A DNA stretch of 64,000 bases from Tautonia marina (GTDB lineage Bacteria; Planctomycetota; Planctomycetia; Isosphaerales; Isosphaeraceae). Location: assembly GCF_009177065.1 (NCBI RefSeq), contig NZ_WEZF01000001.1:124001-188000 (forward strand), given 5' to 3'. Each line of letters starts with the position of its first letter. The first letter of the stretch is position 1. Shown piece by piece: positions 53,301 through 56,716 of this stretch. The notes beneath the pieces were generated by a model. The model saw only the letters and a program-made list of their open reading frames with translations, did no database searches and was not told where the DNA came from. A program made the translations under genes and the position numbers.

Positions 53301-53945
53301 ATGGAAACAGGGTGTCGGGATCTGCGGGGGTTTGCGGGAGCGACCCGGTTTCGGACCGTGCTGGCCGACCCGCCCTGGCAGTTTCAGAACCGGACGGGAA
53401 AGGTCGCGCCCGAGCATCGGCGGCTGACTCGGTATGAGACGATGACCCTCGACGCCATCGCCGCCTTGCCCGTCGATCAGGTGGTCGAAGAACCGGCACA
53501 TCTCTATTTGTGGGTTCCCAATGCGCTCTTGCCCGACGGCTTGATGGTCTTGCAGGCGTGGGGGTTTCGCTACAAGGCGAACCTCGTCTGGCACAAGGTC
53601 CGCAAGGACGGCGGGAGCGACGGCCGCGGGGTCGGGTTTTATTTTCGCAACGTCACCGAGCTGCTTCTGTTCGGCGTACGAGGGCCGAACGCCCGGACCC
53701 GAGAGGCCGGACGCAGGCAGGTCAACCTGTTCGCCTCGCGCAAGCAGGAACACAGCCGCAAACCCGACGAACAGTATGCGATTATCGAGTCCTGTTCCAG
53801 CGGCCCGTATCTGGAATTGTTTGCCCGAGGCACCCGTCCGGGTTGGTCGAGCTGGGGCTTGCAGGCGGCTGAGGGCTACGAGCCGACCTGGCCGACCTAC
53901 GCCGATCATTCCGGATCGAGGAAACACGTGACGGACCCGAGTTGA
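53301..53945 (+). CDS. MT-A70-family DNA/RNA adenine methyltransferase
   Basis: A 214-residue methyltransferase. The catalytic DPPW motif is at 23-26 (VLADPPWQF), followed by YLWVPNALLPDGLMVLQAWGF, a helix-strand pair, and RKPDEQYAIIE, the beta-class MT-A70 pattern. It would methylate adenine N6 in DNA or RNA. No restriction endonuclease lies beside it, so it is an orphan enzyme here. It follows flhB by 155 nt but is not obviously part of that operon. Confidence 0.88.
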   Translation: METGCRDLRGFAGATRFRTVLADPPWQFQNRTGKVAPEHRRLTRYETMTLDAIAALPVDQVVEEPAHLYLWVPNALLPDGLMVLQAWGFRYKANLVWHKVRKDGGSDGRGVGFYFRNVTELLLFGVRGPNARTREAGRRQVNLFASRKQEHSRKPDEQYAIIESCSSGPYLELFARGTRPGWSSWGLQAAEGYEPTWPTYADHSGSRKHVTDPS

Positions 53946-54214: not shown

Positions 54215-54682
54215 ATGTTGGCACGAGGTTTCCTGACGGTGATTCTCCTGGCGAGCCCAGCTGTGGCGCTTGGCCAGAATGATGACCAAGCCCTGGCCGT
54301 GGCCCGGGACGTTCTGGACCGCGGTGCCAAGCTGTTCGACATGCGAGACGCCGCGGCGATGGCAGACACGTATCTTGAGCAGAGTCAGGTCATCCTCATC
54401 AAACAATCGTCTGAGTCGGCCGATTTCGAGATCGAGACCACCAGCGGACGGCGAGAGATCGAGAAAGGGTATGCCGAGCTTTTCAAGGATCGTGATCCCT
54501 CCCATCGCTCACGCAACACGGTGGAACTGGCGCGGTGGTTGACCCCGGATCTGCTGTTGATTCAGGGGCGCTTCGCCCTGAACGTGGAACAGGGCGACTT
54601 CTTGAAGTTTGTCCAGGTCCGGGCTCGCGTGGGAGATCAGTGGAAAGTGGTAACCATGCAGCTCATGCCGCTGCCCCAGTAG
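54215..54682 (+). CDS. Secreted NTF2/SnoaL-like protein
   Basis: A 155-residue protein with a signal peptide (hydrophobic 5-18, ALGQ cleavage). The mature part has the helix-strand pattern of NTF2-like folds (a long N-terminal helix with DVLDRGAKLFDMRDAAAMADTY and a final strand QWKVVTMQLMPL). Some members bind small ligands or are enzymes; no catalytic residues can be assigned here. ATG 54215 gives the signal peptide; the upstream frame is not protein-like. Confidence 0.75.
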   Translation: MLARGFLTVILLASPAVALGQNDDQALAVARDVLDRGAKLFDMRDAAAMADTYLEQSQVILIKQSSESADFEIETTSGRREIEKGYAELFKDRDPSHRSRNTVELARWLTPDLLLIQGRFALNVEQGDFLKFVQVRARVGDQWKVVTMQLMPLPQ

Positions 54683-54761: not shown

Positions 54762-54791
54762 TTGACGATCGCGACCGGCCACCCGTACGAT
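54762..54791 (+). promoter_or_regulatory. Sigma70-type promoter for the leuA leader
   Basis: A -35 box TTGACG (54762-54767) and a -10 box TACGAT (54786-54791) are separated by 18 nt. Transcription would start near 54798, about 60 nt before the leader peptide. The boxes are the best match to the consensus that I see in the window. Confidence 0.55.
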
Positions 54792-54860
54792 CCATTGCAG
54801 TGCTGGTGCTGCGCAAAGTGATCGGCTTCGCTCTGACCATCATTCTCAAACGGAACACGC

Positions 54861-54947
54861 ATGCCCATGTCTCCCGCCATCCTACTGCTGGGCCTTCGAC
54901 TGAGCCTGGCACTCGACCTGTTGCTTACAGGCCGGGTGGGGGACTAG
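54861..54947 (+). CDS. Leucine-rich leader peptide of leuA
   Basis: A 28-codon ORF (ATG 54861, second ATG 54867, stop TAG 54945-54947) encoding a peptide with ten Leu, including LLL, alternating LRLSLALD, and another LLL. Such a run of Leu codons is a sensor of charged leucyl-tRNA. Ribosomes would stall at these codons when leucine is low. It sits between a promoter and a terminator-like hairpin upstream of leuA. Confidence 0.8.
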   Translation: MPMSPAILLLGLRLSLALDLLLTGRVGD

Positions 54948-55033
54948 GGAGCGTCGTCGGCACGAGTCGCACAGGACACGAGACTCGACGGAGCCCCGAG
55001 ACCCACCCGGCCGGTGGATCTCGGGGCTTTTTT
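54932..55033 (+). promoter_or_regulatory. Transcription attenuator of leuA with alternative pairing
   Basis: The terminator form is a 10-bp stem, agccccgaga 54992-55001 with tctcggggct 55019-55028, topped by ccacc/ggtgg and followed by a T-run to 55033. An alternative pairing exists: ccgggtggg at 54932-54940, in the last leader codons, is perfectly complementary to cccacccgg at 55002-55010, inside the terminator. A ribosome stalled on the Leu codons would leave 54932-54940 free to form the anti-terminator; one that reaches the stop would cover it. This is a classical attenuation layout, inferred from sequence only. Confidence 0.75.
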
Positions 55034-55141
55034 GCGTTCCGCAACTGCCTTTTGGTTCGGTTCGATCGACCCCGCCGGCCTTGCTTTGGATCGTTTCCAA
55101 TCCAATACCTTCGAGCACGACGAGAGAGGATAGGCCCCCCT

Positions 55142-56716
55142 ATGGCCGACGACGCACGAATCCGGATCTTCGACACCACGCTCCGCGACGGCGAGCAATC
55201 TCCCGGCGCGAGTATGACCCACGCCGAGAAGCTCGAACTGGCCCGGGCGCTGGCCGACCTCGGGGTCGATATCATCGAGGCCGGGTTCCCGATCGCCTCG
55301 GTCGGCGACTTCGAAGCCGTGCGGGCCATCGCCACCGAGGTCGCCGGGCCGACCATCTGTGCCCTTGCCCGCTGCAACGACCGCGACATCGACCGCGCCT
55401 GGGAGGCGATCCAGTACGCCCAGAAAGGACGCATCCACGTCTTCCTCGCCACGTCGGCCATCCACCGTGAGCACAAGCTGCGGATGACCCCCGAGCAGAT
55501 CATCGAACGCGCCGTCGCCGGGGTCAGGCGTGCCGCCGGCTACTGCCCCGATGTCGAGTTCAGCCCCGAAGACGCCGCGAGAACCGAGATCGACTTCCTC
55601 TGCGCCGTGGTCGAGGCTGCCATCGACGCCGGGGCAACCACCGTCAACATTCCCGATACCGTCGGCTACGCCACCCCGGTCCAGTTCGCCCGCGTGATCC
55701 GAACCCTCAAGGAACGCGTGCCGAACATCGAGAAAGCCATCATCAGCGTTCACTGTCATGACGACCTGGGAATGGCCGTCGCCAACAGCCTCGCCGGGGT
55801 CGAGGCCGGGGCCAGGCAGGTCGAATGCACCATCAACGGTATCGGCGAGCGTGCCGGCAACGCCGCGCTCGAAGAAATCGTCATGGCCCTGCGCACCCGC
55901 AAGGATTTCTACGGCGTCGATACCGGTGTGAAGACCGAGCGTCTCTTCCCGACCAGCCGATTGCTCACCACCATCACCGGCCTCGCCGTACAGCGCAACA
56001 AGGCAATCGTCGGCCGCAATGCCTTCGCTCACGAATCCGGCATCCATCAAGACGGCATGCTGAAAGAGCGCTCGACGTATGAAATCATGAAGCCCGAGGA
56101 AGTCGGTGTGCCCAAAACCGACCTCGTTCTGGGCAAGCACTCCGGCCGCCACGCCTTGAAGGACCGTGCAATCGAACTCGGCTTCCATCTGACCGAGGAG
56201 CAGCTCAACGCCGTCTTCGAAGACTTCAAGGCTCTGGCGGACAAGAAGAAAGAAGTCTACGACGAAGACCTCGCCGTCCTCATCGAGAAGCAGATCGGCG
56301 ACGACGTGCCCAAGGCCTGGGAACTGATCAGCGTACAGACGACCACCGGCACGAACACGCTGCCCACCGCCACCGTCTGCATCCGCAACCCCGCTGGCGA
56401 AATCGTCCAGGACGCCGCCATCGGCGCCGGGCCGGTCGATGCCATCTTCAAGGCCGTTGAGCGTGTGACCGGCGTCCGTGCCTCGCTGCACGACTTCGCC
56501 ATCCGCAGCGTCTCGCGCGGCAAGGACGCCCAGGGCGAGGTCACGCTCGAACTCGCCGTCGAAAGCGACGCCCACGACTTCCGCGGCCGGGCCGCCTCGA
56601 CCGACATCATCGAAGCCAGCGCCCTCGCTTATATCAACGCCGTCAACGCCATCGCCTCCCGCCGCCAGCGCGGTCGCGTCCGCGAGGTCGCCGGCCGCCC
56701 CGGTGCGGGGGCATGA
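55142..56716 (+). CDS. leuA: 2-isopropylmalate synthase
   Basis: A 524-residue LeuA, the committed step of leucine synthesis (acetyl-CoA plus 2-oxoisovalerate). The TIM barrel begins FDTTLRDGEQSPGASM with metal ligand Asp and Arg; the other metal motif is HCHDDLGMAVANS, then INGIGERAGNAALEE. The C-terminal regulatory domain (about 390-510) has TVCIRNPAGEIVQDAAIGAGPVDAIFKAV and confers leucine feedback. ATG 55142 fits the family start. It is downstream of a Leu leader peptide and attenuator. Confidence 0.95.
   Translation: MADDARIRIFDTTLRDGEQSPGASMTHAEKLELARALADLGVDIIEAGFPIASVGDFEAVRAIATEVAGPTICALARCNDRDIDRAWEAIQYAQKGRIHVFLATSAIHREHKLRMTPEQIIERAVAGVRRAAGYCPDVEFSPEDAARTEIDFLCAVVEAAIDAGATTVNIPDTVGYATPVQFARVIRTLKERVPNIEKAIISVHCHDDLGMAVANSLAGVEAGARQVECTINGIGERAGNAALEEIVMALRTRKDFYGVDTGVKTERLFPTSRLLTTITGLAVQRNKAIVGRNAFAHESGIHQDGMLKERSTYEIMKPEEVGVPKTDLVLGKHSGRHALKDRAIELGFHLTEEQLNAVFEDFKALADKKKEVYDEDLAVLIEKQIGDDVPKAWELISVQTTTGTNTLPTATVCIRNPAGEIVQDAAIGAGPVDAIFKAVERVTGVRASLHDFAIRSVSRGKDAQGEVTLELAVESDAHDFRGRAASTDIIEASALAYINAVNAIASRRQRGRVREVAGRPGAGA

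Follow-up and report, generated by a model that had tools for sequence, protein, structure and literature searches.

The enterobacterial leu operon attenuator (Rfam RF00512, Leu_leader) is an established system in which a Leu-rich leader with rare Leu codons, a terminator, an antiterminator and a protector pairing precede leuA. In Actinobacteria, the LEU element likewise places a leader ORF with a run of Leu codons 5′ of leuA, but it forms a pseudoknot whose base stem joins the Leu run to the leuA Shine–Dalgarno sequence, and the look-alike leuA leader of Streptomyces departed from classical attenuator behaviour (PMC1262725). Most descriptions of amino-acid attenuation come from Proteobacteria and Actinobacteria, with a few from Firmicutes (PMC2965389, PMC1262725), and published leader-gene statistics that include planctomycetes report no attenuator there (PMC4833913, PMC2965389, PMC1262725, PMC2864571). 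The preliminary description of the locus reported here knew of no planctomycete example, and we likewise found none in the open literature, to which the search was confined (the survey of Lopatovskaya et al. 2010 may list planctomycetes).

We analysed a window of 64 000 nt (contig 1, positions 124001–188000, of the 7.07 Mb genome G000, most likely of the family Isosphaeraceae), in which the region upstream of leuA carries the enterobacterial features named above, the protector pairing as a candidate. It differs from that system in showing no detectable sequence or structure match to Leu_leader, in that the next ORF 3′ of leuA is unrelated to leucine synthesis, and in that the antiterminator strand of relatives spans the leader stop codon (motif GGTCTTAGGG). 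Gammaproteobacterial leuA leaders, e.g. in Dyella, are also alike, the same scan finding a Leu-rich ORF followed by a GC-rich terminator, whereas their leader and hairpin sequences differ from those in the window. Where the LEU element has its pseudoknot, the window shows a terminator with a U tail, 108 nt 5′ of leuA. An Rfam scan of the window returned no family at gathering score, with the T-box and Leu_leader models unmatched, and no plausible leader family emerged at a permissive threshold; the permissive matches (mir-7180 and others) were dismissed as chance matches to a perfect hairpin. We conclude, with a probability of roughly 90 %, that the leuA leader attenuates transcription through a translating ribosome and thereby senses charged tRNA-Leu. 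The switch is of the classical type and is conserved class-wide in bacteria for which we found no earlier report.

Layout of the leader region

All features described here lie on the forward strand, and their order upstream of leuA was read directly from the window, as the preliminary description had given it. A sigma-70-like promoter at 54762–54791 (−35 TTGACG at 54762–54767, an 18 nt spacer, −10 TACGAT at 54786–54791) was the sole match of a promoter scan in which 0.2 were expected. It is followed by a leader peptide ORF of 28 codons, ten of them Leu (54861–54947; MPMSPAILLLGLRLSLALDLLLTGRVGD), with a second in-frame start at 54867 and its stop codon at 54945–54947. Leader Leu codons 8–10, 12, 14, 16, 18 and 20–22 make up the control region (54882–54926), and the antiterminator strand (region 2, 54930–54940) lies within the last leader codons. 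Region 3 (54992–55012) comprises the terminator's 5′ arm together with its loop, and the 3′ arm and U-run form region 4 (55013–55033, with six U at 55028–55033). The terminator stem pairs 54992–55007 with 55013–55028 at 15 of 16 positions around a 5 nt loop (55008–55012), with a folding energy of −29 to −31 kcal/mol; a consensus terminator scan did not list the hairpin at 54992–55028 and gave a different site instead. Downstream, leuA (55142–56716) encodes a 2-isopropylmalate synthase of 524 aa, with TIGR00973 and NF002086 above cut-off. Further upstream, the ORF at 53301–53945 (+) matched MT-A70 (PF05063, E 2.8e-29) and is adenine methyltransferase-like.

The alternative pairing proposed earlier is indeed perfect, but it comprises 11 bp (54930–54940 with 55002–55012) and not the 9 nt first given; a repeat search recovered the same complementarity as a 93 % match between 54927–54940 and 55002–55015. 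A further pairing had been overlooked, in which a protector strand (region 1, 54869–54878) pairs with 54936–54945. This helix is present in the minimum-energy fold and reached a probability of about 0.90 in folding before region 3 emerges, and it gives the window the classical three-hairpin layout of 1:2, 2:3 and 3:4. The leader-to-terminator segment as a whole folded with a z-score of −3.44, and none of 200 shuffles was equally stable.

Conservation of the leader and its pairings

Of 59 relatives, 57 had a leuA-type match; the stretches upstream of 55 close matches were examined with an identical ORF and hairpin search applied to every set. Leader+terminator scores above the threshold of 1.5 were obtained for 45 of the 55 class leuA loci, compared with 1 of 330 dinucleotide shuffles, and no leaders were found upstream of ilvB, hisG and trpE in the same genomes (0/66 above 1.5). 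Beyond the class, 8 of 40 leuA loci in the phylum exceeded this score. Scanning 80 titled-record loci located the leader in Roseiconus nitratireducens and Stieleria tagensis, in bins named Rubripirellula, Fuerstiella, Gemmataceae, Pirellulales and Phycisphaerales, and in some Gammaproteobacteria (Dyella, Steroidobacteraceae), where leuA attenuators are expected; it was rare elsewhere. Three loci from one Isosphaeraceae genus (L028, L032 and L033; genus g6) had no leader, which looks like a loss and would provide natural deletions for comparing leuA control. An apparent leader without leuA in one further genome (G017) was rejected, as the contig ends at that point.

Relatives have conserved the Leu codons and the distance at which these stand from region 2. 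A −35/−10 promoter scoring 9/12 or better was found 5′ of the leader in 41 of 51 loci and was kept in three congeners of the window's genome. Region 2 extends through the stop codon in relatives (GGTCTTAGGGTTCG), and many leaders end in the conserved motif GGTCTTAGGG(TTCG), which contains the stop codon and mimics the 3′ arm of the terminator; in the window's genus the motif has drifted to GGGGGACTAGGGAGC. A covariance model built for Isosphaeraceae gave a single strong match in the window's genome. It fell at leuA (E 7e-21), and the next best elsewhere in that genome had E 1.7e-4. The same model had no match at leuA of other families, and families were therefore compared by anatomy.

Where both a leader and a hairpin had been called, pairing of the terminator 5′ arm with the leader's end and the bases just after it was stronger than in shuffled sequence (Fisher p about 2e-25, a value that overstates the strength because related loci were counted separately and are not independent). 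Cognate partners of the 2:3 helix were also favoured over swapped ones (permutation z −7.1 for 38 loci), both within Isosphaeraceae (z −4.65) and among the other families (z −3.1). In an alignment of 20 Isosphaeraceae sequences, 95 % of terminator, 85 % of antiterminator and 90 % of protector pairs were kept, all far above slid versions; compensatory changes were few, given how similar these sequences are. Only four pairs of the 2:3 helix changed on both sides within this family, no excess over shuffles, and as the helix is too conserved there, the case for covariation rests on the between-family comparison and the swap test. Leader codons and both pairings, whose absence from related leuA loci the preliminary description had named beforehand as grounds for giving up a leucine attenuator, are conserved across the class, and the comparison strongly supports its reading.

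Evidence for the protector helix across relatives was weaker. Its mean z was −0.49 over 38 loci, and the pairs kept in the Isosphaeraceae alignment showed no covariation. RNAalifold found no strong consensus for the pre-terminator leader of this family, so the 1:2 helix was counted from hand-defined pairs. In Isosphaeraceae leaders (columns 17–30 of alignment A1, e.g. L027), the Leu-Arg-Leu codons CCTTCGACTT are conserved at the nucleotide level; CCTTCGACTT pairs with the region 2 sequence GTCTTAGGG with an internal loop between, and may be the protector strand of this family.

Ribosome position and the proposed switch

The effect of ribosome position was modelled by removing RNA up to the 3′ edge of a ribosome at a given codon, with an assumed footprint of 12 nt beyond the first base of the A-site codon and with region 4 not yet made. 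In the window, the probability of 2:3 pairing was 0.77–0.83 for stalls at Leu8, Leu12 and Leu18, 0.00 at Leu22 and 0.10 at the stop codon, in keeping with the earlier proposal that only a fully translating ribosome would mask the antiterminator strand. Across 44 loci, region 3 paired with the sequence around the stop codon at a mean of 0.69 when the ribosome was stalled at the middle Leu codon, against 0.06 when it had reached the stop; the antiterminator strand formed at a Leu stall and was mostly masked at the stop in all 44, although the outcome at the stop is in part inherent to the geometry. Shuffled spacers gave 0.34 for the middle-Leu stall, and the real sequence was higher at every one of the 44 loci. 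Rarer synonyms made up 47 % of leader Leu codons compared with 11 % in leuA genes (p 3e-21). The excess is chiefly of CTT and may be partly due to the conserved RNA strand CCTTCGACTT. Within the limits of the model, the sensing step is therefore probably a stall of the ribosome at Leu codons.

We envisage that RNA polymerase starts near 54798, a position inferred from the −10 element, and makes the leader with a ribosome trailing. With ample leucyl-tRNA, the ribosome would reach the stop codon and cover region 2, so that regions 3 and 4 pair and RNA polymerase stops at the U-run near 55033. A shortage of leucyl-tRNA would halt the ribosome within the Leu codons that begin at codon 8, where it masks region 1 but not region 2, and region 2 could then pair with region 3; the terminator would then not form and leuA would be transcribed. 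If the leader were not translated at all, regions 1 and 2 would pair and the terminator would be favoured, but 2:3 pairing still reached 0.80 in a model without a ribosome when region 3 was out and region 4 was not, leaving the untranslated state uncertain.

Instead of working via transcription termination, the leader peptide and hairpin might affect the translation of leuA or the stability of its mRNA, or the peptide might act in trans. There is precedent for this in the Streptomyces leuA leader, whose mutants are at odds with classical attenuation (PMC1262725), and one subgroup of Gemmataceae has its hairpin, with a weak U tract, about 20–50 nt from leuA and its region 2 20–44 nt before the stop. 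However, the window hairpin has a tract of six U and stands 108 nt 5′ of leuA, and the pairings of regions 2 and 3 are kept where a terminator switch requires them, which makes this alternative improbable. We consider it very improbable that the hairpin simply terminates transcription of the preceding gene and that the short ORF is a chance occurrence: this gene shares the strand of leuA and ends at 54682, 310 nt 5′ of the hairpin, yet the promoter sits between it and the leader, and leader and terminator occur together at 45/55 leuA loci compared with 0/66 control upstream regions. Similarly slight is the probability that leuA is under the control of a ligand-binding riboswitch, such as a T-box, and that the ORF is incidental. 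T-boxes are common regulators of such genes in Firmicutes, but the Rfam scans identified no such family at gathering score and no plausible leader family at the permissive threshold, and conservation has fallen on the Leu codons and their placement relative to region 2. Attenuation by transcription termination remains our preferred reading.

Possible extent of attenuation in Planctomycetota

The family of genome G047, in which the Gemmataceae-titled L242 falls at up to 86 % LeuA identity, contributed 30 loci. With a slightly looser U-tract rule, 22 of the 30 had a leader+hairpin score above 1.5, many of them with strong U tracts. Loci whose LeuA is nearest that of L242 mostly had a different or weak form, in which the hairpin's U tract was poor and region 2 stood some way 5′ of the stop, whereas other Gemmataceae genera retain the full leader form. 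Among these nearest loci (L319, L320, L323, L325, L326, L333 and L340), the leuA leader was weakened, rearranged or undetected, and in several of them the antiterminator strand lay about 20–44 nt before the stop.

Attenuation depends on the coupling of transcription to translation, and planctomycetes, Gemmata above all, have been the main subject of claims for a spatial separation of the two processes. Class-wide leuA leaders from Isosphaeraceae to Gemmataceae, together with a leader at DAHP synthase described below, could mean that ribosome-mediated attenuation is old and general in Planctomycetota, a tentative view to which we give slightly less than even odds. As attenuators need a ribosome close behind RNA polymerase, such switches would show coupled transcription–translation in cells for which spatial separation has been claimed, and a conserved Gemmataceae leuA attenuator would offer a simple genetic test of that claim. 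Amino-acid attenuation would also be extended to another class, with a compact and conserved model.

Weaker matches of the covariance model led to a second system, at DAHP synthase. One of the two DAHP synthase genes has an upstream terminator, and before this stands a short ORF with many Phe, Tyr and Trp codons. In the window's genome (G000:C8:78013–78056, locus L137) the ORF encodes MDQPVATFGRASYSFTFGYWWWARSFTEWTAAGRRAMLGL and has a TTG start. Judged from sequence, it looks like a putative attenuator reading Phe, Tyr and Trp together. The leader was also found at L138–L141, L163, L174–L176, L218–L223, L226–L229, L234 and L236, which represent several families of the class.
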